Virus record (IMG/VR): IMGVR_UViG_3300050821_000707
Location: 1 to 21,848 of that record
DNA length: 21,848 bases
Direction: 5' to 3' (one strand)
Source of the DNA: a virus
Shown: one piece after another, positions 1,590 through 21,633 of the stretch
Numbering within the stretch: the stretch's first letter is position 1
How the letters are laid out: every line of letters starts with the position of its first letter
The notes under the pieces: generated by a model
Databases searched by the model: none
Seen by the model: only the letters and a program-made list of their open reading frames with translations
What the model was told of the DNA's origin: nothing
Program-made: the position numbers and the translations under genes

Positions 1590-1592
1590 GTT

Positions 1593-1646
1593 CTCTCCAC
1601 GAAAGAGTCGATTGGAGAAGTGCGTTCGTGGCGCGCTCCCCCAATC
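1593..1646 (-). promoter_or_regulatory. RBS-occluding pseudoknot leader of the endonuclease VII gene
   Basis: An 11-bp hairpin pairs 1636-1646 with 1610-1620 and includes two G-U pairs. Its loop holds a seven-base sequence (1625-1631, CCACGAA on the minus strand) that is the exact complement of 1597-1603 (TTCGTGG). That second arm overlaps the first two bases of the Shine-Dalgarno GGAGA. If both pairings form, the result is an H-type pseudoknot that hides the ribosome site. The same plan is found at 11625-11665. This is drawn by eye, not computed. Confidence 0.6.
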
Positions 1647-1648
1647 TA

Positions 1649-1677
1649 ATCTTAACACAGGTTGCAACCCGCGTCAA
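1649..1677 (-). promoter_or_regulatory. Sigma70-type promoter for the endonuclease VII gene
   Basis: On the minus strand TTGACG (1672-1677) and TAAGAT (1649-1654) are separated by exactly 17 bases, close to the bacterial housekeeping consensus. Transcription would begin near 1642, at the very start of the leader hairpin, so transcripts from here would have a slightly shortened hairpin compared with read-through from the capsid gene. That difference could let only promoter-derived mRNA be translated. Confidence 0.7.
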
Positions 1678-1770: not shown

Positions 1771-2007
1771 CTGGTGAAACTTGTCCTTTGTGTTACATCA
1801 TCTTTCGATGAAGAGTTGGTCATTTCTGCCAACCACTCATGGTTTAATTCCCATGAGAGCAGACTATCGCATCGCCTTTCGGCGTTCTCTCGCTTAGTCG
1901 TTCACGGTACTTTTCAGCTTCCGCCTTGTTCCCGTCTCAGGGTTCAAGTCAATCAGAGAGAATTCTCACTCTTTCGAGTGACCCCACTCTTAAGCTACCA
2001 ACTCAAG
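1771..2007 (-). ncRNA. Group I intron core interrupting the major capsid gene
   Basis: This is a self-splicing-type intron. Elements seen in order: a P1-like hairpin spanning the end of the capsid frame (about 1984-2010); P2-like CACTC-GAAA-GAGTG (1967-1980); P3 TTCTCTC (1956-1962) with GAGAGAA (1885-1891); a P4 candidate ACGG/CCGT; P7 GACTA (1895-1899) with TAGTC (1862-1866), preceded by GTGAAC as in the conserved R segment; P8 CGCC-GAAA-GGCG (1873-1884); P9 CTCATGG/CCATGAG (1836-1857); P9.1 GTTGG/CCAAC (1815-1833); and P9.2 TCATC-GAAA-GATGA (1798-1811). The order and the three GNRA loops fit group I. There is no ORF inside. The 5' site is placed after the T at 2008, which can pair T-G with a GGGT guide at about 1981-1984. 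Both splice sites are provisional. Confidence 0.75.
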
Positions 2008-4429: not shown

Positions 4430-6541
4430 TTATAATTGTGTTGTGCTGCCAAAACCCTGAGCACTTGGTTCACCAGTTAACTCCGAATTCATGGCGTGTT
4501 CGGTAGATGCTCTTAGAACTTCAGCACCTGCCTTACCCAACTGCTTCTGATCTTCTAATGTCTGGTCCTGCTGGAACTTCTGCTGCTGCGCTGCTGCTGC
4601 TGCTTTTGCCTGCGCTGCTTGTAAATTAGCAGGTGAGTTGGCATCGTAACGCTTTGTCTCTTCTGGCGTCATAGGACGTAGGAAGTCTTGAGAGAACTTC
4701 CAACCTGCCGCGTCTGTAAATGCCTTAAAGATAGCTACTGCGTCAAACTGCCAGTGAGCATCATTGCAGTTCTTAACGAACGTCGGATTATTCAAAAGCT
4801 GAATGATAATCGGCAACTGCTGTGCCATTTCTTTCTTGGCACCTAGCTTGCCTCCGGCTAGTACTTGATATTCGTACTTTGCCATTCTAAAATCGATATG
4901 GTCAACCATGTAGTCTGCGCCGACTTCCTCGCCTAGAACACGACGAAGAACTGACGTTGGCAACAATTGATTGTTTAACTCGTCCATCTGAAACAACCAA
5001 GGCTCAAAAACCTGGCGTACCAAACGACTTGTTGGACCGTCTAATCTAGATGCGTTAGCCTGGATAACTGCGGCTGCTCCAGTGCCTGAACGCATGCCCG
5101 TACCGCGACCACCGCCAGTGGTTCCGCCCTGACCTACAATTTCATTTGCGCCCGAAGTCGAAGCTGCGGCCTGCTGGGCTTGCTGAATGAACTGCCAAGC
5201 TTCACCCGGAACAGGCGGCATCGTCATAAACTTAAATGCCTTATCAACGTCTTCATCTACGTCGATAATTCCGCCCTGCTTCCAGCGTGTCTGTTGTGTC
5301 GGAACGTTGAAACCCTTCTTACGAACGGCGGTAGGCTGCAATCCGTAAGCGAGCAAGTCTAGCGCAAGATTTGTTACTCCCTGCTCTACGATTTGCTCAC
5401 TTCCGATAAGTTGCCCCAATCCCTGCCCGTAAAAACTATCCGGAAGATTTCTCCAGTTTGCACTGTAAAACGGCATCTTACCGTATGGATTCTCTTCGTT
5501 ACGAAGTAAAATGTTGTGACCAGAGAATGATAAAACTACGATAACTTTATCGTTATCCCAACGTTCCATAAGTTCCAACGATGTCTGTAATTCATCGGCG
5601 GAAGTTTTGAAGTTACGAGGCGTTGCGTGCTGCAAGTATCCACGCATACCTTCTGGGATAGTTATCTGAATATTATCCGGCCCCGAAGTCGGACCAGATA
5701 GAAAGAATGCCCTCAAGGTATTCTCATCTGGAATGTCATAACCAGGTGTATCTCGAAGATGATTTAAATCATCATACGTTACATAATCTCGATAGATAAC
5801 CCACTTTGCTTTGCGAATATCTCCGTAACGACATCCTGGGTCTACTAAGACCGTACGGATATCACAGGATTTAATCCAAGGATGAGAAACCTTAATCGTA
5901 TCTATGTAAATTTCAAAATCGTCCGAATCCGGCGTATCAATCGGAGGAGCCGGGACAGGCGTTTCTAAAACTTTTTGATTTGCTTTACGACGAAACTTTT
6001 TATCTTTCTTGTCGTATTCGAGATAGCCCCACTTAAAGATCGAGGTGCCGAACAATGCCATCTGTTCCAAGCCGCGTTCTAACTCTTCCTCAAACTTCAT
6101 ATCCCATAACTGCGCAGAGAACAATGCTGTCTTCGCACGAGTTACCGCTGGCTTAGTACCCGGACGCGGGCGAAGTAAGAACGGAGGGTCTTCATAAAAC
6201 AAACCCTCCATAATCTTAGGCACAATTGCACTGATATGATTTGATAGCGTGAACTTCGGAACGTTCGCCTGAGATACTTGTCCGCCATCGAATGCAGACG
6301 ACTGCATAGGAGACTGTAAAATAATATCAGACTGCGTCCAACCTGAAGCCCACTGATTTATGTTGCCGTAGTTATCGGCCTGTGCTGCGTCATCAAGAAC
6401 AAGCTTTAACGCGGCCTCGTCACTATATAGGATAGTCCCACTTTCTGGGTCTTTCTTCATATCCTTTGATGTGAGTTGACCGACAGGAGTTACAGACAGT
6501 TCTTCGAGCTTCAACGCTGCTTTTTCATTCAAAGGCTCCAT
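4430..6541 (-). CDS. Portal protein
   Basis: The portal forms the ring at the head vertex through which DNA is packaged and the tail joins. The 703-residue size is typical of large portals from podovirus-like phages. Supporting features: position directly after the large terminase; an early acidic segment with W-rich sequence (NQWASGWTQSD); a stretch SAIVPKIMEGLFYEDPPFLL followed by basic residues; a middle stretch NEENPYGKMPFYSANWRNLP followed by SFYGQGLGQLIGSEQIVEQG, which closely fits the wing/stem region of portals; and a Gln/Ala-rich C-terminal tail (AQAKAAAAAQQQKFQQDQT) of the coiled type. AGGAG lies nine bases before the start. The call rests on these patterns and synteny. Confidence 0.85.
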   Translation of the reverse strand: MEPLNEKAALKLEELSVTPVGQLTSKDMKKDPESGTILYSDEAALKLVLDDAAQADNYGNINQWASGWTQSDIILQSPMQSSAFDGGQVSQANVPKFTLSNHISAIVPKIMEGLFYEDPPFLLRPRPGTKPAVTRAKTALFSAQLWDMKFEEELERGLEQMALFGTSIFKWGYLEYDKKDKKFRRKANQKVLETPVPAPPIDTPDSDDFEIYIDTIKVSHPWIKSCDIRTVLVDPGCRYGDIRKAKWVIYRDYVTYDDLNHLRDTPGYDIPDENTLRAFFLSGPTSGPDNIQITIPEGMRGYLQHATPRNFKTSADELQTSLELMERWDNDKVIVVLSFSGHNILLRNEENPYGKMPFYSANWRNLPDSFYGQGLGQLIGSEQIVEQGVTNLALDLLAYGLQPTAVRKKGFNVPTQQTRWKQGGIIDVDEDVDKAFKFMTMPPVPGEAWQFIQQAQQAAASTSGANEIVGQGGTTGGGRGTGMRSGTGAAAVIQANASRLDGPTSRLVRQVFEPWLFQMDELNNQLLPTSVLRRVLGEEVGADYMVDHIDFRMAKYEYQVLAGGKLGAKKEMAQQLPIIIQLLNNPTFVKNCNDAHWQFDAVAIFKAFTDAAGWKFSQDFLRPMTPEETKRYDANSPANLQAAQAKAAAAAQQQKFQQDQTLEDQKQLGKAGAEVLRASTEHAMNSELTGEPSAQGFGSTTQL

Positions 6542-6552
6542 GTCTATGTCTC

Positions 6553-8736
6553 CTATTCATTTCTTCCGAACATCCTTCCTAGCCCGAGATTCTTTATTGC
6601 TTTGTCCATTGGGCTCGGCGGCGGTTCAGGTGGAGCAACTAGCTCGGGTTCAACCCTAGCTTGTTGATTGCCTCCAAAATGCATCTTATAAGCATCAGCT
6701 AGTGCTCTCCGTATGTTCTCCTGTTCTTCCATCTTATACTTTTCTTCTTGCTCTCTTGGAGTAAGTTGTATCTGCATGAACGGCAGAAATCGTGGAAGAA
6801 AAGAACAGGCGTCAGGAATATCATCTTTCTTTCTCGCTCCACTAACCTGTCCCTTATAGTTTATGAACTGACGAAAAGTTTCATCTAACGCTTCGCCTGC
6901 GAATCCGAAATACAATTGGTCATTCTTCAAGAGAATTTCAAGAGTCTTAATGCGATTACGTTTTGCATTCCTATCGTTCTCTGGTCTCTTCCAGTAGATG
7001 TTTGTTATATTTCTTCCGAACTGGATTTGAGATTGTTTTTGAATTTCAAGCTTGAGTAAGTCGAGCCCGCCAGTATCTTCGATTATGATAGTCCTAGACG
7101 GGAACCACTTGTTACAAAACTCGGCTATGCGATACGCCAACTGAGACTGCGTCCAATGATTGTAAGATACCTCAAGCAACACGAGAGCTACTTGGCCATC
7201 ATCCTTCTTAAAAGTTCTACCCGCCACTAGTACGGAGTAATCTGAATACTTACTTGTCACCCTAGCCGGGTCACAAGATATAAATATCTCACCGTCGATT
7301 TTCTTTCGAGCGTTCTCCGGCGTCATGATATGGGCCATCAAGAGTTCTTCAGTAAACTGAAGCTTGAAGCCATCATCATCCATCGCAGGTTCGTTAAGCT
7401 GTTGGCACCTGAATAGTTTCTCGTTATCCTTGAGTGCCTTTCGAAGTTTCTTCCAGGTTTCCTGTTCCGGGAATGTTAACCAAACCATCTCTTCGGTCAA
7501 GTCTTTAATGTGCTTGTCTTCAAAACCTGGCTTTACTATCCAAGATGCCCGCTTGAAGAACTTCAAAGGATACTCTTCCGGGTCTTCCTCGTGCTTGATT
7601 AACTTGAGACCGTAATAATCATCATTAAAGTATCTGGTGCCGATGATATCCATCCAGCCCCAGGCCATCAATAAGTTCGTAGCGCTGTCAGCCTTTTCTC
7701 TAAGCGCTTCGCGAGTCTCTTCTGTAAGACAGTTATCGTCGGTAACAACGTCATCGAACTTCAAAAAATCGCAGTGAAAACCTGACAATGAAGAACCGAT
7801 AGAAATGATTCCTAGAGTCGGGTCGTGCGTAATAGACTCGTGCACGCGAGCCGGACATATCAAAGGTTCTTTAGAATCTCCGTCGATACCGCGAACTACA
7901 TACTCAGGAAATAATAAGTGAAATGTACTTGGGTGCTGGCCCCTAGGCAAATAGAAACGAGTCTTGATACCGACTAGGAACTGAAGAGCAAGCTTATAAA
8001 CTCCAGACATAATCAAAATACGAACGTCAGGACAATTAATTATAAGCTGTATGCAATGTATTCCATCGATAGTTGATTTGAAAAACCCACGAGGGTCCAT
8101 CAATATCATCGTACGAGCGTAATTGCTTTTGTCTTCTACTTCGTTGGGGTCTAGGATATACTTTCCGAAATCTTTTAAAGTTCTCGGTTCATACTCTCCG
8201 GTCTCAACCCAAATACGAGGAACACGGTTCTGACGGGCGAAGACAGGTTGCAAATCCTTTAAAGAATATCCTTCTGAAAATGCCCCATCAAAATCCGGTT
8301 GAACAAATTGATTGCATACAACCTTGTGAGTATTCGGAACAAAGTCCGCGTGTAGTATCTCTTTACCTAACCAGTACAAATCCTTACGAGCCTTATCACG
8401 GGCGCGAAGCCACTGGTCAAAATGCAGATAGCCTTCATCGCTATACGGGCCGGGAATACGGCGCTCCATGACTGGCTGTATCTGTCTATCCTTACTCGGC
8501 TTCTTTCCACGGGCTTTTTCTTCAGCATCCGGAGAAAGGTCCGCATCCCCTAGATACAATAACCAAAGATCAGAAAGAGACAATACTTCAGACTTGTATC
8601 GTACGCCCTTGGCCTCTTCATCCCAAGCTTTAACGAAGCCAGGCCAGAACTTTAGTTGAGCGTTAAGATTTTCTTTCCCATCCAGGCGGTAACGAATAAA
8701 ATTGTGATCTTTCTTTTCCTGGCCTGTAAGGGGCAT
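6553..8736 (-). CDS. terL: Terminase large subunit (packaging ATPase and nuclease)
   Basis: The motor that pumps DNA into the head and cuts it. The ATPase part is shown by a Walker A-like MDPRGFFKST at about residues 213-222 and a Walker B-like FLKFDDVVTDDN at about 323-334. The C-terminal RNase H-type nuclease is shown by ISCDPARVTSKYSDYSVLVA (about residue 500), IIIEDTGGLDLLKLEI and a final DDIPDACSFLPRF acidic motif. The Walker A lacks the usual GxGK spacing, as many terminases do. At 727 residues it is longer than many, with ~150 extra N-terminal residues. AGGAG precedes the ATG at 8736. No small terminase subunit is evident in the window. Confidence 0.92.
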   Translation of the reverse strand: MPLTGQEKKDHNFIRYRLDGKENLNAQLKFWPGFVKAWDEEAKGVRYKSEVLSLSDLWLLYLGDADLSPDAEEKARGKKPSKDRQIQPVMERRIPGPYSDEGYLHFDQWLRARDKARKDLYWLGKEILHADFVPNTHKVVCNQFVQPDFDGAFSEGYSLKDLQPVFARQNRVPRIWVETGEYEPRTLKDFGKYILDPNEVEDKSNYARTMILMDPRGFFKSTIDGIHCIQLIINCPDVRILIMSGVYKLALQFLVGIKTRFYLPRGQHPSTFHLLFPEYVVRGIDGDSKEPLICPARVHESITHDPTLGIISIGSSLSGFHCDFLKFDDVVTDDNCLTEETREALREKADSATNLLMAWGWMDIIGTRYFNDDYYGLKLIKHEEDPEEYPLKFFKRASWIVKPGFEDKHIKDLTEEMVWLTFPEQETWKKLRKALKDNEKLFRCQQLNEPAMDDDGFKLQFTEELLMAHIMTPENARKKIDGEIFISCDPARVTSKYSDYSVLVAGRTFKKDDGQVALVLLEVSYNHWTQSQLAYRIAEFCNKWFPSRTIIIEDTGGLDLLKLEIQKQSQIQFGRNITNIYWKRPENDRNAKRNRIKTLEILLKNDQLYFGFAGEALDETFRQFINYKGQVSGARKKDDIPDACSFLPRFLPFMQIQLTPREQEEKYKMEEQENIRRALADAYKMHFGGNQQARVEPELVAPPEPPPSPMDKAIKNLGLGRMFGRNE

Positions 8737-12118: not shown

Positions 12119-13174
12119 TTACGAACCATGCGCGAAAAGCAAATAATCTAGCCAGTATGAAATATTTCCGCCAATATTTATAACTTGAATGATGTCTTCA
12201 AAATCTGGATTATTTGTCCACGTATCATCTGAAAGGGCATCTAACGTTGCCGTTCCGTCTAGTCTTGTAACAAATTGTCCGACGCGAGTCCCGTTAGTTG
12301 GATTTACTGCCGGATAATGAACCGCTCCCGCAAAATCAACATTTAAGAGCACCGTCGCTCCATTGTTGTCAACAATTTGAATCAAGTCCAATTTCGGAGA
12401 ACCAACACCTTGTCCTGTAGGCTGTGGCCATGCAGTCAAAACGGATGAGCCTAGATTACGAGAAATAAGACAGTTTTGTGTTGGACCCGTAGTCGTTCCG
12501 CCGCCACCTCCACCAGTAGGAGCAGTCGCAATAAGCGCAGATGAGATAGAAACGGCACCGCTCGAATTACCCAAACCAACAAGTGCGCGGCCATTCAAAA
12601 CACCACCGCCGAATGTAGCGCTAACCTGGGCAAGAATATTACCGATCATCACTGAGACGCCAGCAAAGATAGAAGTGAAAGAACTACCGACCAACCAAAC
12701 TATATTTGCAGCGTTAGCGCCGTTGGCGAGCAAGATAGACGCACCGCTTTCAAGTGTTATCGTTGAGCCAGCCTTGAAAATGAAAACAGCGTTTGCATTG
12801 CCCTGAGCATCTAACGTGATACTCGTCGGAATATCCATACTGGTTCCGGCTGAATAATTTCCAGGAGTGTATGTCGAAGGACCAGAGTTACCGGACACAC
12901 TCAAGTTGACTGAGGATGCGCCCAAAGAAGTAAACGATAACGCAGCAAAAGTGTTATAAGCAGCTAGTGCATCGAGCCTTGCTTGTAATGAGTTTGCATT
13001 ATCAATAACGGCGGGAGGGGTGAGAATGCCAGGACCAGGTATTCCAGTTATAGAAGAGGTAGGGAAGGAGCCAATATTGCCGCCAGTTATGACGGTAGTG
13101 CCGACATTTGTAATACCGGAATACGCGTTAAATACGTAATTTTGTCCGGTCAAAAGCTGTGACTGTATAGACAT
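12119..13174 (-). CDS. Virion/tail protein with DUF3494 ice-binding-type domain
   Basis: 351 residues in two parts joined by a poly-Gly linker (about 221-226). Residues ~8-218 follow the DUF3494 (ice-binding-like adhesion) pattern closely: SGITNVGTTVITGGNIGSFP near 19-38, PPAVIDNANSLQARLDALAAYN at 53-74, TYTPGNYSAG at 101-110, LDAQGNANAVFIFKAGSTI at 121-139, GANAANIVWLVGSS at 152-165 and GGGVLNGRALVG at 189-200. This fold is a right-handed beta-helix flanked by a long helix, known for binding ice and also used as an adhesion module. The last ~90 residues contain KLDLIQIVDNNGATVLLNVD, which also appears in the protein at 14900. No signal peptide, consistent with a particle protein. GGAG precedes the ATG at 13174. 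The family call is from memory of the pattern. Confidence 0.8.
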   Translation of the reverse strand: MSIQSQLLTGQNYVFNAYSGITNVGTTVITGGNIGSFPTSSITGIPGPGILTPPAVIDNANSLQARLDALAAYNTFAALSFTSLGASSVNLSVSGNSGPSTYTPGNYSAGTSMDIPTSITLDAQGNANAVFIFKAGSTITLESGASILLANGANAANIVWLVGSSFTSIFAGVSVMIGNILAQVSATFGGGVLNGRALVGLGNSSGAVSISSALIATAPTGGGGGGTTTGPTQNCLISRNLGSSVLTAWPQPTGQGVGSPKLDLIQIVDNNGATVLLNVDFAGAVHYPAVNPTNGTRVGQFVTRLDGTATLDALSDDTWTNNPDFEDIIQVINIGGNISYWLDYLLFAHGS

Positions 13175-15954: not shown

Positions 15955-16028
15955 TGGTCGAGAAAAGAGTAATCGAAACTCTGTCTCTCCCTTCCGACGG
16001 GAGTAGATTACCACTATCAGATTTCTCG
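15955..16028 (-). tRNA. tRNA-Pro(CGG)
   Basis: Acceptor CGAGAAA/TTTCTCG (C1-G72 as usual for Pro), A73, encoded CCA. Anticodon arm CTCCC-GTCGGAA-GGGAG gives CGG. The T arm AGAGT-TTCGATT-ACTCT is canonical. The D stem (TGAT/ATCT) has one mismatch. Confidence 0.85.
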
Positions 16029-16032
16029 AAGA

Positions 16033-16122
16033 TGGTCGGGGCGAGAGGAATTGAACCTCCAAGGGAGTTTGTCCACCTGCTTCCAAAGCAGGACCGCTGC
16101 CAGATTACGGACCTACACCCCG
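16033..16122 (-). tRNA. tRNA-Pro(TGG), enlarged
   Basis: Acceptor CGGGGTG/CGCCCCG with C1-G72 and A73, encoded CCA, anticodon arm CCTGC-TTTGGAA-GCAGG (TGG), T loop TTCAATT. At 90 bases it is unusually long: five bases instead of two separate the acceptor from the D stem (CCGT/GCGG), and the variable region is about 15 bases and can form a small GGA/TCC stem. Confidence 0.8.
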
Positions 16123-16130
16123 ATTAAAAT

Positions 16131-16205
16131 TGGTTCGGTGACAAGGATTCGAACCTTGACCTGGTGGTTCAGAGCCACCCGTGTTGCCTATTACACTATC
16201 TCCGA
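16131..16205 (-). tRNA. tRNA-Gln(CTG)
   Basis: Acceptor TCGGAGA/TCACCGA with one A-A mismatch, D stem GTGT/ACAC, anticodon arm GGTGG-CTCTGAA-CCACC (CTG), T arm CAAGG-TTCGAAT-CCTTG, A73 and encoded CCA. U1-A72 is usual for Gln. Confidence 0.88.
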
Positions 16206-16214
16206 ATAGAAAAT

Positions 16215-16289
16215 TGGTTGGAGGCGAAGGATTCGAACCTTCACGAACGCTTTCAAAGAGCGTGATGCTACCGATTACATTAGCTTCCA
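16215..16289 (-). tRNA. tRNA-Gln(TTG)
   Basis: Acceptor TGGAAGC/GCCTCCA with one A-C mismatch, D stem ATGT/GCAT, anticodon arm ACGCT-CTTTGAA-AGCGT (TTG), T arm GAAGG-TTCGAAT-CCTTC, A73, encoded CCA. With the neighbouring CTG isoacceptor it covers both Gln codons. Confidence 0.9.
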
Positions 16290-16290
16290 A

Positions 16291-16323
16291 TGGTCCAGGG
16301 TTTTGAAGTCATCGTCACCCCGG
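16291..16323 (-). other. CCA-ended minihelix
   Basis: CCGGGG/CCCTGG form six pairs (one G-U) followed by A then CCA, like a tRNA acceptor end. The loop ends in TTCAAAA, which resembles a T loop. It lies right after the exported-protein gene at 16334 and before tRNA-Gln(TTG). Confidence 0.4.
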
Positions 16324-16333
16324 ATAAAAACTT

Positions 16334-16519
16334 TTACGTCCCAAGAAACAACTGAGCACAATAATATGTGTTGAACGGAAAAGGTACTAAAAGACACGGC
16401 ACAACGTTCGGATTGTAACCGCCGTCCGGTGGCGGTGGAGCAGCCCCGTTTGCCCATACTGGCTTCGTGCTTAACAAGAACATGACGGCTAGGACTACCG
16501 CGAACAATTTTCTTTTCAT
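16334..16519 (-). CDS. Small exported protein with signal peptide, 61 aa
   Basis: The start at 16519 is chosen because AAGGA lies four bases before the ATG; an ATG four codons upstream overlaps that site. Residues 1-22 form a clear signal peptide (MKRKLFAVVLAVMFLLSTKP then VWANG), with likely cleavage after the Ala. The mature part is only ~38 residues, with a PPPPDGG turn, two Cys that could form a disulfide and aromatic residues near the end. No family is recognised. Two TTGA-loop hairpins lie between it and tRNA-Cys upstream. Confidence 0.65.
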   Translation of the reverse strand: MKRKLFAVVLAVMFLLSTKPVWANGAAPPPPDGGYNPNVVPCLLVPFPFNTYYCAQLFLGT

Positions 16520-16584
16520 ATATCCTTTCAATCGTCTCTCAAGAGCACGTAAAGTCTTTTAACATGCCCTCAAGAGCATAAACT

Positions 16585-16661
16585 TGGACTACCGACTCAG
16601 ACTCTAACTGAGTAAGATTCCTTTTGCAGAGGAACGCCTCGGACGCTTCAGCATTCGGTAG
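16585..16661 (-). tRNA. tRNA-Cys(GCA)
   Basis: Acceptor CTACCGA/TCGGTAG (perfect), U73 as normal for Cys, encoded CCA, anticodon arm TTCCT-CTGCAAA-AGGAA (GCA). The T arm CTCAG-TTAGAGT-CTGAG has A at position 56, and the D loop reads GAAGCGTCCGA with GT where GG is expected, a matched change. Confidence 0.85.
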
Positions 16662-16662
16662 T

Positions 16663-16697
16663 TGGTACAAGGTCAAGTTTTGAAACCCGTGCCCTGC
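16663..16697 (-). other. CCA-ended acceptor/T-arm minihelix
   Basis: GCAGGG pairs with CCTTGT (two G-U pairs), then A and CCA follow. Inside is a T-arm-like hairpin CGGGT-TTCAAA-ACTTG. This is the top half of a tRNA without D and anticodon arms. Upstream a GTGCG/CGCAC stem (about 16703-16728) fills the remaining space. Not a full cloverleaf. Confidence 0.45.
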
Positions 16698-16735
16698 AAG
16701 GTGCGATCACGCTCCCGCGTTCACGCACATGAAAC

Positions 16736-16824
16736 TGGAGGAAGACCGGAGAATCGAACTCCGTCACCCGGTGAAAGGTGTCTCTGTTTTCAGGACAGTT
16801 AGACGCCATCGTCAGCCGTCTTCC
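16736..16824 (-). tRNA. tRNA-Ser(TGA) with C33
   Basis: Class II tRNA: acceptor GGAAGAC/GTCTTCC (perfect), variable arm CACC/GGTG, T arm CGGAG-TTCGATT-CTCCG, encoded CCA. The anticodon loop is CCTGAAA, so the anticodon is TGA but position 33 is C instead of T. The discriminator is T, not the usual G, and the D arm is irregular. Charging and function are uncertain. Confidence 0.75.
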
Positions 16825-16825
16825 T

Positions 16826-16861
16826 TGGCAGTGGCTCGTAGCTTTCGGCTCGTGGCCCCTG
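16826..16861 (-). other. CCA-ended hairpin between two Ser tRNAs
   Basis: CAGGGGC and GCCACTG form a stem with one mismatch, topped by AGC-CGAAA-GCT, and CCA follows directly at the 3' side. The stem also contains two copies of ACGAGCC. It fills the gap between the two Ser tRNAs exactly. Confidence 0.4.
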
Positions 16862-16869
16862 TGAAATTT

Positions 16870-16957
16870 TGGAGGAAGGTAAGTGATTCGAACACTTACA
16901 ACCTTTCGGTTGACTCAGGTTTAGCGAACCAGTACGTTACCGTTCCGTCAACCTTCC
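16870..16957 (-). tRNA. tRNA-Ser(GCT) with C33
   Basis: Class II tRNA: acceptor GGAAGGT/ACCTTCC (perfect), variable arm CAACC-GAAA-GGTTG, T arm AAGTG-TTCGAAT-CACTT, encoded CCA. Anticodon arm CTGGT-TCGCTAA-ACCTG gives GCT with C at position 33 and one T-T mismatch. The discriminator is T, as in the other Ser tRNA. Confidence 0.85.
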
Positions 16958-16961
16958 TCGA

Positions 16962-17354
16962 TTATCGGCACATACCCATGATTGGGTTCTGACCAGCAGG
17001 ACATGTTGCGCTAGCCTGCTTATAAGACTCAATGCCGTTAAATGTAGCCATACCTAGTGCTGGCACCGCCCATTCTTTAATGTGCTCGTGACGGCCCCAC
17101 AAGCTGATAGCAGTCATGCCTGCGGTACCCGCGATGTTGAGCCCTCGGATAGCAGCAGGTTCTGAGTACTCTCCAAAGCAAGTACCGGGCTCAAGCCTAG
17201 CTCGGCAATCATGCGTAGTCTTTGAAAGAGCGATAGAAGACCCAGCAGCCGCGCCAATCACGAGCCATACCTTCCAATCCTTGTACCAGGGTTTAGCCTG
17301 GACCGGAACGGATAACAAACAGAACAAAGCAACCAAGCTGATTAGTTTTTTCAT
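16962..17354 (-). CDS. Exported protein with signal peptide, 130 aa
   Basis: Residues 1-20 (MKKLISLVALFCLLSVPVQA) are a strong signal peptide with an AxA-type site. The mature part begins KPWYKDWKVWL, followed by a hydrophobic stretch VIGAAAGSSIALS that could be a second membrane segment. Two further Ala/Gly-rich segments (about 73-85 and 95-103) and four Cys follow. I do not recognise the family. It ends four bases before tRNA-Ser(GCT) and starts 45 bases after the RNase P RNA. The gap holds a CCATG/CATGG palindrome around TAATTA (17371-17388). Confidence 0.7.
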   Translation of the reverse strand: MKKLISLVALFCLLSVPVQAKPWYKDWKVWLVIGAAAGSSIALSKTTHDCRARLEPGTCFGEYSEPAAIRGLNIAGTAGMTAISLWGRHEHIKEWAVPALGMATFNGIESYKQASATCPAGQNPIMGMCR

Positions 17355-17398
17355 ACTCAGCCTTTCTTGACCATGTTAATTATCATGGCCATGTGAGT

Positions 17399-17731
17399 CT
17401 TTATGGTTAGCCTATAGCCAGGATTCTGTAAGCCTTGCGGCCCGACAATCATCCATCTAGTCCTGTAAGGACTCACGACATTACATCGTGTGCTCTCAAC
17501 CCGGCTATCACAGCGCTAGACAACGCTCCAGCCCTATTTGAGATTGCTACGAGAGTGGAGTGCCTTTGCTCGAATGGCTGATAGTTTGCTTATGAGGCGA
17601 ACTATTCAACACAAAGCCTTACCCGTCACCTTACGGTGCCCGCAACTTCCACGGCTCTCTGTCTAATGTAGTCCTGAACTTCCTCGAAGCGCACTTACGT
17701 TTACTCCGCGATTGTCCGGCTTACCATTAAG
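17399..17731 (-). ncRNA. rnpB: RNase P RNA (bacterial A-type), phage-encoded
   Basis: The catalytic RNA that cuts the 5' leader off precursor tRNAs. All conserved blocks are present in order on the minus strand: CR-I GAGGAAGTTCAGGAC (17671-17685), followed by ACAG about a dozen bases on; CR-III CCACTC...GTAGCAA...CAAATAGGG (17532-17558); CR-IV AGATGGATGATTGTC (17454-17468); and CR-V ACAGAATCCTGGCTAT (17414-17429). P1 pairs ATGGTAAGCC (17718-17727) with GGCTAACCAT (17403-17412), one mismatch, and can extend to 17731/17399. P4 pairs CAGGA (17672-17676) with TCCTG (17419-17423), where E. coli has CCGGG/CCCGG, so it covaries. At ~330 bases it is slightly shorter than the E. coli RNA. It sits amid the tRNA genes. 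The 5' end directly follows an endonuclease stop codon. Ends are estimated from P1. Confidence 0.93.
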
Positions 17732-17732
17732 C

Positions 17733-18047
17733 TTATTGCATCAAATCTTTACCGAGATACTTTGCAAAACGTTTACGCCACGTTTTCTTACAAAACTTTT
17801 CAAACAAGCCTAAAGTTCCGTTACATCCGCTACATAAAAGACCTCGAAACTTTCCTGTTCGATGGCAGTGGTCGGGCACAAGAGCGGTTTCTTTATTACA
17901 TATTCCGCAACGTCCTTTTTGTTTACTAGACGCCTTATCGTACATTTCCCGAGTAATCTTGTACTTTTTAAATATGTAAGCGAAGTACTTTTCCCAATCA
18001 CGCCAATTTGATAATTGAGTTGGTGGAAATCTATTTGGCTTCATCAC
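17733..18047 (-). CDS. Endonuclease VII-type HNH endonuclease next to RNase P RNA
   Basis: 104 residues with the endonuclease VII core: CGIC at 47-50, DHCHRTGKFRGLLCSGCN at 59-76, then GTLGLFEKF. The N-terminal 45 residues are basic and aromatic (WRDWEKYFAYIFKKYKITRE), and the C-terminus is strongly basic (CKKTWRKRFAKYLGK). This family includes resolvases and homing endonucleases of phages. Two adjacent ATGs occur at the start; the ribosome site is weak (AGAAAGAA). It begins 10 bases after the stop of the exported-protein gene and ends one base before the RNase P RNA helix P1, a placement typical of an inserted mobile gene. Confidence 0.88.
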   Translation of the reverse strand: MMKPNRFPPTQLSNWRDWEKYFAYIFKKYKITREMYDKASSKQKGRCGICNKETALVPDHCHRTGKFRGLLCSGCNGTLGLFEKFCKKTWRKRFAKYLGKDLMQ

Positions 18048-18057
18048 ATTCTTTCTG

Positions 18058-18600
18058 TTAAGATTTAGGCACGAGTCTTGTAGACCCCTCTGCCAAAAAT
18101 TTCACTAACTTCTCTAAAAGTTCTTGTTCGTCATCTGTCTTACGCATATCCGAACAAGTCTTTTCGCTGTCTTCTACGCCGATGAAGATGTCATCAATCG
18201 GTCCAACAAACCCGTAATACAAATGGGACAACTTACCATTCGCGTACATGAGTCCGATAATTCTGTTTCCGAGTCTTCCACCAGCTATCTCAAGCTTGGC
18301 GTCTTCGAATGTTCCCGTTCCCTTGAACTGAATCACGCCGTCGTCATTCTTCGGCTGTTCTTCGATGTCAAGAACCAACGGAGGCTCATCACTCTTAACC
18401 GTTGTCGGACTCGTTAAATAAGTTCCAAAGGTAAGATGCTTTCTATCGGAACTCAAAATAGAATGTATAACAGTAAAATCTCTACCACCGCAACTCGTAA
18501 TGTTATACTCTATGGCAGTCTTCTCTTCGGGCTTAACCTGCCCAAACACTGGCGCTGCGATTAATGCAGCCCCGAGAATTAAACTGCGGAGTATTCTCAT
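18058..18600 (-). CDS. Exported protein with signal peptide, 180 aa
   Basis: The start at 18600 is fixed by AGAAGG before the ATG; the longer frame upstream runs through two tRNA genes and is rejected. Residues 1-20 (MRILRSLILGAALIAAPVFG) are a signal peptide. The mature part is acidic and mixed beta (VIHSILSSDRKHLTFGTYLT, then GRLGNRIIGLMYANGKLSHL), with two widely spaced Cys. No family is recognised. It lies after tRNA-Arg(CCT) and before the endonuclease that abuts the RNase P RNA. It may act in the host periplasm. Confidence 0.75.
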   Translation of the reverse strand: MRILRSLILGAALIAAPVFGQVKPEEKTAIEYNITSCGGRDFTVIHSILSSDRKHLTFGTYLTSPTTVKSDEPPLVLDIEEQPKNDDGVIQFKGTGTFEDAKLEIAGGRLGNRIIGLMYANGKLSHLYYGFVGPIDDIFIGVEDSEKTCSDMRKTDDEQELLEKLVKFLAEGSTRLVPKS

Positions 18601-18618
18601 AACACCTTCTAACAAACT

Positions 18619-18693
18619 TGGAATCCCCGGCGAGAATCGAACTCGCGTCCTCAGCTTAGGAGTCTGTGGCTCTATCCATTGAGCTACAGGGAT
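18619..18693 (-). tRNA. tRNA-Arg(CCT)
   Basis: Acceptor ATCCCTG/CGGGGAT, D stem GCTC/GAGC, T arm GCGAG-TTCGATT-CTCGC, encoded CCA. Anticodon loop CTCCTAA gives CCT. The anticodon stem is weak, with A-A and A-G mismatches at its two ends. The discriminator is T rather than the usual A or G. Confidence 0.8.
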
Positions 18694-18700
18694 ATAAAAT

Positions 18701-18775
18701 TGGAGGCCCCAGAGGGAATCGAACCCTCGTTCGCAGTTTAGAAGACTGCCGTCCTGTCCATTGAACGACAGGGCC
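18701..18775 (-). tRNA. tRNA-Arg(TCT)
   Basis: Acceptor GGCCCTG/TGGGGCC, D stem GTTC/GGAC, perfect anticodon arm GCAGT-CTTCTAA-ACTGC (TCT), T arm GAGGG-TTCGATT-CCCTC, encoded CCA, T discriminator. Reads AGA, often a rare codon in hosts. Confidence 0.9.
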
Positions 18776-18783
18776 AAAACTTT

Positions 18784-18908
18784 TGGTGGAGGAAGTAACC
18801 CTTAACAACGCCACGGTAAACCGGGAATAGCAGTCAACGGACACAGAACGGGAGTCGAACCCGCTTCTCTGGCTTTCACACCAGCGCATTCCTGAATGCT
18901 ATTCCTCC
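18784..18908 (-). ncRNA. tRNA-like RNA with displaced 3' acceptor strand
   Basis: 125 bases. GGAGGAA at the 5' end pairs perfectly with TTCCTCC at the 3' end, followed by A and CCA, as in a tRNA. The first half has a D-arm-like GCAT/ATGC, an anticodon-like CTGG...CCAG with loop TGTGAAAG, and a normal T-arm GCGGG-TTCGACT-CCCGT. But about 54 bases separate the T arm from the acceptor 3' strand, where a tRNA has none. That insert contains TGCTATTCC, which can also pair with GGAATAGCA near the 5' end (nine bases). No amino acid can be assigned; His or Phe are weak guesses. Confidence 0.55.
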
Positions 18909-18915
18909 AAACTTT

Positions 18916-18989
18916 TGGCAGGAAGTGAGAGAATCGAACTCCCGTCGCTCGATTTGGAGGCGAGCAGACTACCATTGTCCTAACAACCT
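18916..18989 (-). tRNA. tRNA-Trp(CCA)
   Basis: Acceptor AGGTTGT/ACTTCCT with two T-T mismatches, G73 as usual for Trp, encoded CCA, D stem GGAC/GTCT, anticodon loop CTCCAAA (CCA) in stem CTCG/CGAG, T arm GGGAG-TTCGATT-CTCTC. Reads UGG, so it is not a suppressor. Confidence 0.82.
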
Positions 18990-18998
18990 GCGGAAACT

Positions 18999-19072
18999 TG
19001 GAGCGGGTACACGGATTCGAACCGAGACACTCAACTTGGAAGGATGAGGTGCTACCGTTACACTATACCTGC
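18999..19072 (-). tRNA. tRNA-Gly(TCC)
   Basis: Acceptor GCAGGTA/TACCCGC with one mismatch, U73 as normal for Gly, encoded CCA, D stem GTGT/GCAC, anticodon loop CTTCCAA (TCC) in a stem with one T-T mismatch, T loop TTCGAAT. Confidence 0.85.
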
Positions 19073-19080
19073 TCAAAACT

Positions 19081-19154
19081 TGGAGCGAAGTATCGGAGTC
19101 GAACCGACACCCCAACCTTGGCAAGGTTGAGTTCTACCGTTAAACTAACTACGC
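19081..19154 (-). tRNA. tRNA-Gly(GCC)
   Basis: Acceptor GCGTAGT/ACTTCGC with one T-T mismatch, U73, encoded CCA, D stem GTTT/GAAC, perfect anticodon arm CAACC-TTGCCAA-GGTTG (GCC), T arm GTCGG-TTCGACT-CCGAT. Confidence 0.9.
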
Positions 19155-19161
19155 TCGAAAC

Positions 19162-19234
19162 TGGTAGCAGAGGTGAGAGTCGAACCCACGGGGTCTGGTT
19201 TATGAGACCAGATTGAATACCCATTCTCCCTGCT
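19162..19234 (-). tRNA. tRNA-Met(CAT) or Ile(CAT, lysidine type)
   Basis: Acceptor AGCAGGG/CTCTGCT, A73, encoded CCA, anticodon arm CTGGT-CTCATAA-ACCAG (CAT), T arm GTGGG-TTCGACT-CTCAC. It lacks the three G-C pairs of initiator tRNA. The D arm is very small (GAAT/ATTC with a four-base loop). CAT does not separate elongator Met from Ile2. Confidence 0.8.
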
Positions 19235-19242
19235 ATTAAATT

Positions 19243-19327
19243 TGGTCCCCCATGAGTGACTCGAACACTCACGCCCGAAGGCACTGGTTTCTAAGACCAG
19301 CGCGTCTCCCAATTCCGCCAACAGGGG
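19243..19327 (-). tRNA. tRNA-Leu(TAG)
   Basis: Class II: acceptor CCCCTGT/ATGGGGG, A73, encoded CCA, anticodon arm CTGGT-CTTAGAA-ACCAG (TAG), variable arm TGCC-TTCG-GGCG, T arm GAGTG-TTCGAGT-CACTC. Confidence 0.88.
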
Positions 19328-19335
19328 ATTAAACT

Positions 19336-19545
19336 TTACTCTATGTAACGCATTCTAAATGTTGTATTCGGCGCAATCGACACCGTATACTTAAATCTAT
19401 AGCTCACCCAGCCGCCCGGTCCTACTTCATCGCGTTTACGAAGATAGTATTTTCGGTCTGTTTCAGGAATAAACTTCATTAGCGGAGCTAACTTCACTAC
19501 CGCTGGGGCGATTCCCAACATCGATAAAAATTTACGTCTATGCAT
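19336..19545 (-). CDS. Small protein with Tat-like N-terminus, 69 aa
   Basis: The N-terminus MHRRKFLSMLGIAPAVVKLA closely resembles a twin-arginine (RRxFL) export signal followed by a moderately hydrophobic stretch. Only ~45 residues follow, with a basic helix (DRKYYLRKRDEVG) and beta-rich end YRFKYTVSIAPNTTFRMRYI. I do not recognise it. The ribosome site is weak: AAGG is 16 bases ahead. It lies eight bases before tRNA-Leu. Coding status is likely but not certain; it could be a chance frame between tRNAs. Confidence 0.5.
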   Translation of the reverse strand: MHRRKFLSMLGIAPAVVKLAPLMKFIPETDRKYYLRKRDEVGPGGWVSYRFKYTVSIAPNTTFRMRYIE

Positions 19546-19570
19546 AAACTTTTACTACAAACCTTACGCT

Positions 19571-19593
19571 CACTACAGATACCACTTGTAGTG
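19571..19593 (-). other. Hairpin between tRNA-Glu(TTC) and the small Tat-like gene
   Basis: CACTACA and TGTAGTG form seven perfect pairs with a nine-base loop in the 58-base gap. No T tract follows, so it is probably an RNA-processing or stability element. Confidence 0.35.
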
Positions 19594-19603
19594 TGCTGAA
19601 ACT

Positions 19604-19680
19604 TGGTAGCGTAGAAGGGATGTCGAACCCTTGTTCTCGGCTTGAAAGGCCGATGTCCTTGTCCACTAGACGACTTCGCC
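19604..19680 (-). tRNA. tRNA-Glu(TTC)
   Basis: Acceptor GGCGAAG/CTACGCT with one A-A mismatch, A73, encoded CCA, perfect anticodon arm TCGGC-CTTTCAA-GCCGA (TTC), D arm as in other Glu tRNAs. The T loop TTCGACAT has eight bases, one more than normal. Confidence 0.85.
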
Positions 19681-19691
19681 ACTGAAAATTA

Positions 19692-19765
19692 TGGTCGCCC
19701 TACGGGGTGTCGAGCCCCGACCGTGCGGCTGAGAACCGCGTGTCCTACCGTTAAACGATAGGGCG
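19692..19765 (-). tRNA. tRNA-Glu(CTC)
   Basis: Acceptor CGCCCTA/TAGGGCG (perfect), A73, encoded CCA, D stem GTTT/GGAC, anticodon arm GCGG-TTCTCAG-CCGC (CTC), T arm CGGGG-CTCGACA-CCCCG with C at position 54. Confidence 0.85.
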
Positions 19766-19766
19766 A

Positions 19767-20132
19767 TTAAAACCTATAGACTCGGATAAACAAACCCGGA
19801 TGATAGTAACTGTGCGCGTACCAACATCCATCCTCGCCTATTACGAAGTAAACATCATCTTCGAAAAACCAATCCGGCCACAAGCCTAGTCCACAATTGA
19901 ACCAGAACCCGCCATAGAAATATTCTCTGCGTCCGCCGAACCAACGATAGTGATTACGGCTGAAATGCGTTCTATGCTCTGGCCCGAAGCTACGACGGTC
20001 CATGTGACCGTTCATGTGCTCGTGAACACTTCTATTTGCGTGAGCATTAGCATGCCCTTGATGACCACGCTGGGCTTGTGCAGGCAAAGCAAACAATGTT
20101 AAGAACGCAATCAGAATCAATATTTTCTTCAT
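19767..20132 (-). CDS. Exported His/aromatic-rich protein, 121 aa
   Basis: The start at 20132 is fixed by GAGGAG before the ATG; the longer frame reads through a tRNA-Asp gene. Residues 1-20 (MKKILILIAFLTLFALPAQA) form a strong signal peptide. The mature N-terminus is His- and Asn-rich (GHQGHANAHANRSVHEHMNG, then HMDRR), and the rest is rich in Trp, Phe, Tyr and Gly (YRWFGGRREYFYGGFWFNCG, later WPDWFFEDDVYFVIGEDGCW). Two Cys could pair. The family is unknown; the His cluster could bind metal in the periplasm. It ends one base from tRNA-Glu(CTC). Confidence 0.75.
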   Translation of the reverse strand: MKKILILIAFLTLFALPAQAQRGHQGHANAHANRSVHEHMNGHMDRRSFGPEHRTHFSRNHYRWFGGRREYFYGGFWFNCGLGLWPDWFFEDDVYFVIGEDGCWYAHSYYHPGLFIRVYRF

Positions 20133-20146
20133 GGCTCTCCTCAAAA

Positions 20147-20223
20147 TGGCGGTGCGGACGGGATTCGAACCCGTGAGGTCTGTCGTGACAGGACAGTGCG
20201 ATAGGCCGCTACGCGACCACACC
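20147..20223 (-). tRNA. tRNA-Asp(GTC)
   Basis: Acceptor GGTGTGG/CCGCACC, G73 as usual for Asp, encoded CCA, D stem GCG/CGC, perfect anticodon arm CTGTC-CTGTCAC-GACAG (GTC), T arm ACGGG-TTCGAAT-CCCGT. Confidence 0.92.
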
Positions 20224-20231
20224 GTAAAATC

Positions 20232-20306
20232 TGGAGCTACGTGATGGAAATCGAACCATCGTTTCAGCTTTACCAAAGCTGCGTCTTCCCATTGGACGAA
20301 CGAAGC
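20232..20306 (-). tRNA. tRNA-Thr(GGT)
   Basis: Acceptor GCTTCGT/ACGTAGC with one T-T mismatch, encoded CCA, D stem GTC/GAC, perfect anticodon arm CAGCT-TTGGTAA-AGCTG (GGT). T arm GATGG/CCATC with an eight-base loop TTCGATTT. The discriminator is T, unlike the usual A for Thr. Confidence 0.85.
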
Positions 20307-20311
20307 AAATC

Positions 20312-20385
20312 TGGAGCTTGACTAAAGACTCGAACTTTAATTCGCGGTTTACGGAACCGCCGTATTACCTTTATACGAGTCAAGC
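20312..20385 (-). tRNA. tRNA-Thr(CGT) with C33
   Basis: Acceptor GCTTGAC/GTCAAGC (perfect), D stem GTAT/ATAC, T arm TAAAG-TTCGAGT-CTTTA, encoded CCA, T discriminator. Anticodon arm GCGGT-TCCGTAA-ACCGC gives CGT, with C at position 33. The stop codon of the upstream HNH gene lies inside the 5' acceptor strand. Confidence 0.88.
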
Positions 20386-20820
20386 AGAAACTCTTCTATT
20401 TCGTAGAGCGTTTTGTTTGCTCTTACAAAATTTGCACTTAGAATGCAACCCATTCCAACGAATTGCATTTTTATCGAACTCTTCAACTACTTTGAAAGAC
20501 TCACAATCAAAACACCATGATTGGCCTTCAGGTGCTGCTATCTTTCTCCACGGTGCTCCATGCCGAACATGTGGCACATTACATTTCATATGCGAGAAAG
20601 CAACGTTGTCTAAATCCCAAAATAGTTCAGCCGATATACCCTCCCACGGCTTAATGTGTTCTACACTTAATTCTTCAACAGTTTCAATTACCCCACTGCA
20701 TCGAACACAAATGTTTTCATCGTGCTTCTTTAACTGCCTAAATAAGAGCATCTTACGGAGTCTGCCGGATGCAGTACCCTGCGGCATGCCTAATGTTTCA
20801 ACTGCTTTTCTATTTGACAT
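20380..20820 (-). CDS. HNH endonuclease with extra zinc module, stop inside tRNA-Thr
   Basis: 146 residues. The start at 20820 has AAGGA eight bases before the ATG; the longer frame upstream runs through tRNA-Thr(TGT). An N-terminal helical part with GMPQGTASGRLRKMLLFRQL leads to an HNH core: CVRC at 38-41, VEHIKPW at 53-59, DNVAFSHMKCN at 71-81. A further Cys module follows (CFDC 103-106, CKFC 129-132) that probably binds zinc and contacts DNA. The TGA stop falls within the 5' acceptor strand of tRNA-Thr(CGT), so gene and tRNA overlap by six bases. It is probably a homing gene placed between two Thr tRNAs. Confidence 0.88.
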   Translation of the reverse strand: MSNRKAVETLGMPQGTASGRLRKMLLFRQLKKHDENICVRCSGVIETVEELSVEHIKPWEGISAELFWDLDNVAFSHMKCNVPHVRHGAPWRKIAAPEGQSWCFDCESFKVVEEFDKNAIRWNGLHSKCKFCKSKQNALRNRRVSA

Positions 20821-20858
20821 AACGTTGGTCCTTGACCGCTGTATGTATTTGTAAAATC

Positions 20859-20934
20859 TGGAGCACAACATTCGATTCGAACGAATGTGACGGAGGTACA
20901 AGCTCCGGATACTAGACCGCTGTATGAGTCGTGC
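20859..20934 (-). tRNA. tRNA-Thr(TGT)
   Basis: Acceptor GCACGAC/GTTGTGC, D stem ATAC/GTAT, perfect anticodon arm CGGAG-CTTGTAC-CTCCG (TGT), T arm ATTCG-TTCGAAT-CGAAT, encoded CCA, T discriminator as in the other two Thr tRNAs. Confidence 0.9.
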
Positions 20935-20943
20935 TCGAAACTT

Positions 20944-21031
20944 AGTCGCGAGGCAACAAACGCATCAGGAGAGTGGTTTTACCCACGTTTCTTATCAGAG
21001 AAGTAACCCGACACTAACGGCACTCACGACT
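20944..21031 (-). ncRNA. Unassigned folded segment with 9-bp closing stem
   Basis: AGTCGTGAG and CTCGCGACT pair over nine bases (one G-U) and enclose ~70 bases with hairpins CCG/CGG, TTCT/AGAA and GTGG/CCAC. It has the general plan of a class II tRNA but no TTCGANT loop and no CCA. It fills the gap between tRNA-Asn and tRNA-Thr(TGT). It may be a decayed tRNA or a different small RNA. Confidence 0.4.
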
Positions 21032-21037
21032 TAAATT

Positions 21038-21114
21038 TGGCTGGCACAGTGCGATTCGAACGCACATCCTCCTGATTAACAGTCAGGTGTATTACCAATT
21101 GATACGACATGCCA
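21038..21114 (-). tRNA. tRNA-Asn(GTT)
   Basis: Acceptor TGGCATG/TGTGCCA, G73, encoded CCA, D stem GTAT/ATAC, perfect anticodon arm CCTGA-CTGTTAA-TCAGG (GTT), T arm GTGCG-TTCGAAT-CGCAC. Confidence 0.92.
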
Positions 21115-21165
21115 GTAGAACTTTGAGTACGACACGGTACTGATACTCCTGCCGTACTTATAAAT

Positions 21166-21240
21166 TGGAAGGCCACCGGGGAATCTAACCCCGCTCCCAG
21201 CGTTCGTAGCGCTGTGCATTATACGATATACGAGCGGCCC
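21166..21240 (-). tRNA. tRNA-Arg(ACG)
   Basis: Acceptor GGGCCGC/GTGGCCT with wobble pairs at 1-72 and 6-67, encoded CCA, T discriminator, D stem GTAT/ATGC, perfect anticodon arm CAGCG-CTACGAA-CGCTG (ACG). The T loop is TTAGATT (A56), and the D loop ATCGTATA has GT where GG is expected. Confidence 0.85.
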
Positions 21241-21250
21241 TCGAAACTAA

Positions 21251-21337
21251 TTGAGTCTTGTAAACGTTCCTGTCGTGATTGTTTACCAGCCCCGGATACA
21301 TGCGACAGCGATGTACTACCCGCTAGCTGTGACTCAA
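21251..21337 (-). ncRNA. Unassigned folded segment with 7-bp closing stem
   Basis: TTGAGTC and GACTCAA pair perfectly and enclose hairpins ACAGC/GCTGT and GTAAAC/GTTTAC around a GC-rich centre. No T loop, no CCA and no recognisable anticodon arm. It fills the gap between tRNA-Arg(ACG) and the next CCA-ended hairpin. Confidence 0.4.
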
Positions 21338-21340
21338 ATT

Positions 21341-21368
21341 TGGCGACCCTCGGTTTTACCCTCAGGTC
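21341..21368 (-). other. CCA-ended hairpin
   Basis: GACC/GGTC closes a small hairpin with an inner GGGTAAAACC, followed by G and CCA. The same ten bases occur in the folded segment at 20944-21031. It lies five bases after tRNA-Val(TAC). Confidence 0.35.
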
Positions 21369-21373
21369 AAGAT

Positions 21374-21449
21374 TGGTATCCCGTAAGTGAATCGAACACT
21401 TCCTTCCTCTTTGTAGGAGAGGCGCATACGACCAGTCTGCTAACAGGAT
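21374..21449 (-). tRNA. tRNA-Val(TAC) with C33
   Basis: Acceptor ATCCTGT/ACGGGAT, A73, encoded CCA, D stem GCA/TGC, T arm AAGTG-TTCGATT-CACTT. Anticodon arm CCTCT-CCTACAA-AGAGG is perfectly paired and gives TAC, with C rather than T at position 33. Confidence 0.87.
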
Positions 21450-21514
21450 ACATAAATTTAGCAAGTGTGAGTACGGGCTTGCGCTCCGGTTGAATTCTCG
21501 ACACTCACTGTGAT

Positions 21515-21534
21515 TCAACAGACCTTTCTGTTGA
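21515..21534 (-). other. Perfect 8-bp hairpin between tRNA-Ala and tRNA-Val
   Basis: TCAACAGA/TCTGTTGA with a four-base loop. A second stem GTGAGT/ACTCAC lies just downstream (about 21465-21510). No T tract follows either, so these are more likely processing or stability structures than terminators. Confidence 0.4.
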
Positions 21535-21559
21535 TGAGAACACAACCACCTTATTAAAT

Positions 21560-21633
21560 TGGTGGACCGAGGGAGAATCGAACTCCCAACGCTTCGGTGC
21601 AAGCGAAGCAGTATCCCATTTACCTACCAGCCC
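21560..21633 (-). tRNA. tRNA-Ala(TGC)
   Basis: Acceptor GGGCTGG/TCGGTCC with several wobble pairs, A73, encoded CCA, D stem GGTA/TACT, perfect anticodon arm CTTCG-CTTGCAC-CGAAG (TGC), T arm GGGAG-TTCGATT-CTCCC. The stop codon of the gene upstream lies inside it. Confidence 0.9.

Follow-up and report, generated by a model that had tools for sequence, protein, structure and literature searches.

A type A RNase P RNA gene with a rewritten P4 helix inside a phage tRNA array

The stretch of DNA analysed here (the window) is the entire IMG/VR record IMGVR_UViG_3300050821_000707, a 21.8-kb metagenomic fragment of 21,848 bases. Its main features are given below together with points of comparison from G050 (IMGVR_UViG_3300044981_000022; 118,838 bases), a separate phage contig brought in by a pattern scan.

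1990-2961, minus strand: major capsid protein (weak match to phrog_1357; 75-84% identical pieces in G050)
4430-6541, minus strand: portal protein, SU10-like (PF23899, phrog_1216)
6553-8736, minus strand: terminase large subunit (phrog_38)
15955-21633, minus strand: array of 21 tRNA genes (ARAGORN), with small ORFs between them (endonuclease VII and HNH; Pfam) and the RNase P RNA inside
17399-17727, minus strand: RNase P RNA gene, full length (cmscan; G050 homologue conserved from about 17737 to 17398; covariation)
17733-18047, minus strand: upstream neighbour of the RNase P RNA, an endonuclease VII ORF (PF02945; missing here in G050)

ARAGORN places 21 tRNA genes in the window, every one on the minus strand, a count that replaces the 24 of the preliminary description; all 21 encode CCA. 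The RNase P RNA is located between tRNA-Arg(cct) and tRNA-Ser(gct). With 441 and 891 nt separating it from its closest tRNAs, tight sandwiching between tRNAs does not hold for the window copy. Two endonuclease VII ORFs and one HNH ORF are present in the window (1161-1667, 17733-18047 and 20380-20901), and the endonuclease ORFs of the array may be mobile because they are placed differently in G050. A gene of the structural region (12119-13174) encodes a strong Ice_binding-like domain (PF11999, 121 bits).

The preliminary description, made from the letters of the DNA, had read an A-type RNase P RNA on the minus strand, and comparison with Rfam bears this out. Using cmscan, RF00010 (RNaseP_bact_a) matches 17727-17399 on the minus strand with 111.8 bits (E 7.7e-34), above the curated gathering cut-off of 100 bits and across model positions 1-367 of 367. 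Helices P1-P5, P7, P15-P17 and the P6 pseudoknot, the mark that sets type A apart from type B RNase P RNA, can all be drawn in the window RNA, and P1 closes both ends as had been proposed, with 9 of 10 pairs formed. The claim that all conserved blocks are present holds for CR-IV, which is intact, and for CR-I and CR-V, which are there with altered bases, but not for CR-II and CR-III, whose motifs (ACAGAnA and GGGUGAAA) are not recognizable in the window RNA. From 5' to 3', the elements of the RNA are as follows.

17718-17727, minus strand: P1 5' strand, pairs with 17403-17412
17710-17716, minus strand: P2 5' strand GACAATC, pairs with 17444-17450
17670-17685, minus strand: CR-I and P4 5' strand GAGGAAGTTCAGGACT, changed from bacterial GAGGAAAGTCCGGGCT
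17661-17664, minus strand: 5' strand of the P6 pseudoknot (AGAC; partner GTCT in the P17 loop)
17555-17626, minus strand: degenerate specificity-domain region (CR-II/CR-III unrecognizable; limits approximate)
17518-17521, minus strand: P6 pseudoknot 3' strand GTCT, partner of AGAC at 17661-17664
17499-17503, minus strand: CGGGT (GGU motif), invariant in five phage RNAs
17444-17450, minus strand: P2 3' strand GATTGTC, partner of 17710-17716
17414-17429, minus strand: CR-V and P4 3' strand ACAGAATCCTGGCTAT, changed from bacterial ACAGAACCCGGCTTAT
17403-17412, minus strand: P1 3' strand, partner of 17718-17727

The fold of the RNA is under selection. In an alignment of five phage RNAs (from the window, G050, G110, G087 and G093), 34 of 72 base pairs have changes on both sides and 87.7% of cells still pair, compared with 33.5-38.1% in slid-register controls; the structure was drawn on the window sequence, which raises the paired percentage, whereas the double changes counted in the remaining rows gain nothing from this. 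The covariation score lies above all 500 shuffles. P1, P2, P5, P7, P15 and P16 have 97-100% of cells paired, and the AGAC/GUCU pairing of the P6 pseudoknot has 95%, with three of its four pairs changed on both sides.

G050 carries its own RF00010 match at 64847-65185 (100.2 bits, against the cut-off of 100) in an array of the same order as that of the window (Gly, Gly, Trp, Val, Arg, Arg, RNase P, Ser, Ser, Gln, Gln, Pro, Pro), a few tRNAs of which are missing in the window. The two contigs have homologous capsid, portal and terminase genes in the same order, with identities of 75-84% (piece by piece), 74% and 48%, respectively. DNA similarity at the RNA spans about 17398-17737 and ends at the RNA limits, and the flanking genes differ. 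That phage and bacterial DNA were joined in assembly to give a chimeric window, an objection that the preliminary description had set against itself beforehand, is contradicted by G050, which has the same RNA, the same tRNA order and homologous structural genes. Although the window is only a metagenomic fragment, we find a chimera scarcely credible: the RNA is carried by several other arrays and by cultured phages, its GC content matches that of its flanks, and 84,980 prokaryote genomes yielded no RNase P RNA of exactly this P4/CR-I form.

Several other genes of G050 were recorded. Its capsid gene (L125 9061-11120; G050 89061-91120) matches the uninterrupted capsid gene of the window in three separate pieces, two of which have a LAGLIDADG ORF between them, an arrangement that suggests self-splicing introns. 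A 466-amino-acid protein (L121 18446-19846) has a TROVE (Ro60) domain; in bacteria, this RNA-binding protein is associated with quality control of RNA. Genes for a glutathionylspermidine synthase-like protein and a nicotinamide/nicotinate phosphoribosyltransferase are also present (L121 7187-8329; L126 16579-17970).

There is good support for the preliminary claim of a phage-encoded RNase P RNA within a tRNA array, and the pattern extends far beyond the window. We searched IMG/VR once with canonical CR-I and twice with CR-V, scoring the matches by Infernal, and found the RNA inside a tRNA array in 18 records: the window, G050, G087 (463 kb), G088, G089, G093, G097, G102 (369 kb), G104 (363 kb), G107, G108, G110, L270, L272, L273, L275, L277 and L278. 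This count includes near-duplicates (G089/G093) and close relatives (G097/G102/G107), and phage status other than for the window and G050 is taken from IMG/VR and the tRNA arrays, with a Terminase_6N match backing G102 and also G098 (268 kb), the RNase P RNA of which lies 5.7-6.0 kb from its tRNAs. Four of the array RNAs (L270, at 40.2 bits, L272, L275 and L278) fall short of the Rfam cut-off, yet have E values of 1e-10 to 1e-24. In some lineages the specificity domain appears to be reduced, giving predicted RNAs of approximately 220 nt.

To cover cultured phages, we queried INPHARED with concatenated phage RNase P RNAs and retrieved the Microbacterium phages Zooman, Big4 and A3Wally together with a fourth record. 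In the three named phages the RNA fills an unannotated gap between two adjacent tRNA genes and scores 51-72 bits with RF00010 (cut-off 100; E 1e-13 to 1e-20). Across 22 tRNA-array records, the RNA is on the same strand as all or nearly all of the tRNAs. A3Wally (L279) and Zooman (L280) also have RNA ligase genes (one RtcB-like) and ADP-ribosyltransferase genes beside the array and RNase P RNA. Many tRNA genes in MZ150783.1 (L279) are named with the anticodon taken as the codon, which is an annotation error; for example, an annotated tRNA-Pro(ccg) is read by ARAGORN as tRNA-Arg with anticodon ccg.

Other matches were set aside. A 14-base CR-IV pattern in viral contigs hit mostly by chance, with an RF00010 match in 2 of 80 scored (G050 and G078), and that of G078 is at a contig end and bacterial-like. 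High-scoring RNAs near contig ends and without an array (G082, G083, G084, G094, G096, G099, G100, G103, G105 and L274) look like bacterial or prophage flanks and were not counted, nor were records that lack a tRNA array (G081, G085, G086, G090, G091, G095 and G109). The match in Microcystis phage MaAM05 (MW495066.1, L281; wastewater source line) was discarded because fabI, engB and glyS surround the RNA, and the stretch seen therefore looks like bacterial chromosome. INPHARED matches to Salmonella AGRM01000002 and to a human-faecal ‘Bacteriophage sp.’ were left out of the count. A terminase search of viral contigs for relatives of the window found none.

The change in CR-I that had been pointed out earlier is confirmed (window CR-I, GAGGAAGTTC), as is the P4 pairing of CAGGA with TCCTG; three more positions pair and the bulged U is retained. 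In what we take to be E. coli numbering, A67-U has become G-C, G68-C has become U.G, and C71-G and G74-C have each become A-U, and the U69 bulge stays. All eight P4 pairs hold in all five aligned phage RNAs, four of them with changes on both sides. The earlier idea of a specialized CR-I thus survives as one half of a compensated rewrite of four P4 pairs that the window, G050 and other phage lineages have in common and that none of the bacteria checked has. The identical rewrite occurs in the window, G050, G110 (265 kb) and L270 (152.6 kb, with 32 tRNAs and a tmRNA).

Other phages have intermediate or unaltered forms of the helix. A3Wally and the contig L278 have canonical P4, whereas Zooman and Big4 have the switch at positions 67 and 68 alone (TAGGAAGTTCCGGGC paired with GAACCCGGGCTA); between these two pairs of otherwise approximately 91% identical RNAs, both P4 strands switch together, and there are further compensated changes in P3 and another helix. 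On the 53.9-kb contig L271, a candidate CR-I (GAGGAAGCTCAGGACA) accompanies a CR-V that is the same as in the window rewrite, which would make position 68 C-G. This reduced RNase P RNA candidate (1945-2200, approximately 250 nt) has putative P1 (9 pairs) and P2 (8 pairs) helices, and a terminator-like hairpin of its own lies downstream; RF00010 does not match it. L269 was dropped because a CR-V variant is present but the upstream CR-I is missing.

We scanned 84,980 prokaryote species for the exact form GAGGAAGTTCAGGNCTNCA, a scan that does not cover the partial form of Zooman. None of the 39 matches had neighbouring RNase P motifs or a downstream CR-V, and cmscan of 19 of these loci gave no RF00010 match. 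The genomes with GAGGAAGTTCAGGNCTNCA have their own RF00010 match in 34 of 38 cases, with best scores of 138-335 bits. All 27 bacterial RNAs that were readable (30 loci fetched) keep AAAGTCC and CGGCTTA.

In a tree of the RNAs, the window and G050 are sisters (100/100) within a loose phage group that also includes G110, G087, G093, G088 and G085 (83/90, P4 columns removed). L270 branches together with L272 (100/94), whose P4 is canonical, and an AU test does not reject a single clade of L270 with the window, G050 and G110 (p 0.094). The remaining phage RNAs are elsewhere in the tree, some of them nearer to bacterial RNAs, and deep branches are weak; given this scatter, phages probably acquired RNase P RNA more than once. 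No bacterial RNA in our small sample is close to the window group. The closest cultured phage by portal protein is Tunturiibacter phage Tunturi_3 (35%; Acidobacteriota host), which has neither a tRNA array nor the RNase P motif pair. The score of the window RNA, 111.8 bits compared with 138-335 for the best matches in the 34 bacterial genomes, is at the low end, which would speak for a recently captured, functionless bacterial rnpB or a decaying pseudogene. We regard either as very unlikely in the face of the extensive covariation, the synteny with G050, the precise boundaries of conservation and the coordinated P4 switches between close relatives.

The specificity domain is degenerate, a feature that the preliminary description had missed. 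CR-II and CR-III, the T-loop-binding elements of RNase P RNA, are typical of type A RNAs although outside the Rfam criterion, and Infernal leaves 60 nt of this region unaligned in the window. The strict motif is also missing in G050, L272 and L275; at least one of the two motifs occurs in all 27 readable bacterial RNAs, and they are kept in other phage array RNAs such as those of G087, G093 and G110. Because the motifs are unrecognizable in the window RNA, substrate recognition must differ from the textbook case. In cellular type A RNAs, the GGU motif pairs with the 3' CCA of the tRNA, and binding of substrates by the phage RNA may lean on this acceptor end. Together, the rewritten P4 and the degraded T-loop-binding region suggest divergence from cellular RNase P towards the phage’s own substrates or conditions.

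The same two changes could also indicate a specialized RNase P whose targets are not ordinary 5' leaders but non-standard ones, for instance host tRNAs or unusual precursors from the array. We think this improbable, as the array RNAs of G087, G093 and G110 retain CR-II and CR-III and nothing in the sequence points to an altered target.

A gene for the protein subunit RnpA (PF00825) was found in none of 21 virus records (the window, G050 and 19 others), some of which may be fragments; a control search detected PF00825 in 10 of 14 genomes. This agrees with the earlier statement that RnpA is not seen in the window, and it leaves the accompanying proposal of self-sufficient tRNA maturation unsupported. 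The most likely partner of the phage RNA is host RnpA. One use of such a partnership would be as a decoy, in which the phage RNA ties up host RnpA without cutting and lowers host tRNA maturation during infection. The failure to find a phage RnpA gene and the degenerate specificity domain would fit a decoy, but P4 with its bulged U, the J18/2 AGAUG region and the GGU motif are conserved with compensatory changes, and tRNA substrates are indicated both by the location in tRNA arrays and by the retained contact with CCA; we therefore consider it unlikely.

We favour, as probable, the hypothesis that the phage encodes a type A RNase P RNA that is transcribed with the array and, with host RnpA, cleaves the 5' leaders of phage tRNA precursors. 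The full-length Rfam match, the covariation, the synteny with G050, the recurrence in arrays on the strand of the tRNAs and close to them, the paired P4 switches between the Zooman/Big4 and A3Wally/L278 RNAs and the kept GGU/CCA contact are all in its favour. The RNA would be transcribed as part of the tRNA-array transcript, would join host RnpA and would remove 5' leaders, presumably by catalysis and with a preference for phage precursors, providing extra capacity to process the sudden supply of over 20 phage tRNAs in the cell. A tRNA lies within 6 nt of the RNA on one side or both in 18 of the 22 array records, and on both in 10 (distances that include small overlaps with model tails), which suggests release by tRNA end processing, partly by RNase P itself. 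As the RNA ends a few bases from a tRNA in many relatives, cleavage of the downstream tRNA by RNase P would also free its 3' end.

More tentatively, and with considerable doubt, the phage RNAs may form a separate branch of RNase P RNA, with P4 repeatedly and convergently rewritten and some members of only approximately 220 nt, that acts as an orthogonal enzyme beside host RNase P. If so, phage strands would be unable to pair with host strands, the phage enzyme would escape anything that targets the cellular P4 sequence, and T-loop recognition would not be needed.

To our knowledge, RNase P RNA has been treated as a near-universal cellular ribozyme that belongs to cells only. Megaphages have been recognized partly by tRNAs and tmRNA as the only RNAs detected, and a missing RNase P RNA has been used as a hint of megaphage sequence (PMC8172020). 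Now that the RNA is known from numerous phage contigs and from phages in culture, the question of why a virus needs its own can be put in a simple host system. As natural experiments, the P4 rewrites and the forms of approximately 220 nt bear on which parts of the ribozyme are essential.

The tRNA arrays of T4-like and jumbo phages likewise have many tRNA genes with small endonuclease genes between them. T4 uses host RNase P. In the open literature (subscription papers and preprints being outside this scope), we found no description of an RNase P RNA in such arrays and no report of one in any phage; the main text of Al-Shayeb et al. 2020 does not mention RNase P. In bacteria, Mycobacterium austroafricanum and M. 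sp. YC-RL4 have additional copies of RNase P RNA whose specificity domain is altered; they adjoin an endonuclease gene, and horizontal acquisition has been proposed for them (PMC9569102). These are in bacterial genomes, and the parts of that paper considered here place no RNase P RNA in a phage. RNase P RNAs of the Candidate Phyla Radiation are reduced or diverged and score low with standard models, much like the phage RNAs, but are cellular (PMC8172020). The window RNA shares P1-P5, P7, P15-P17, the P6 pseudoknot, CR-IV, J18/2 and the GGU motif with bacterial type A RNAs (RF00010). It differs from them in being phage-encoded, in its unrecognizable CR-II and CR-III, in having no linked rnpA that we could find and in the rewriting of four P4 pairs, a variation absent from the 27 readable bacterial RNAs. 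The molecule itself is a known one; what is new, as far as we can tell, is that a phage genome encodes it, that P4 is rewritten and that reduced forms exist.
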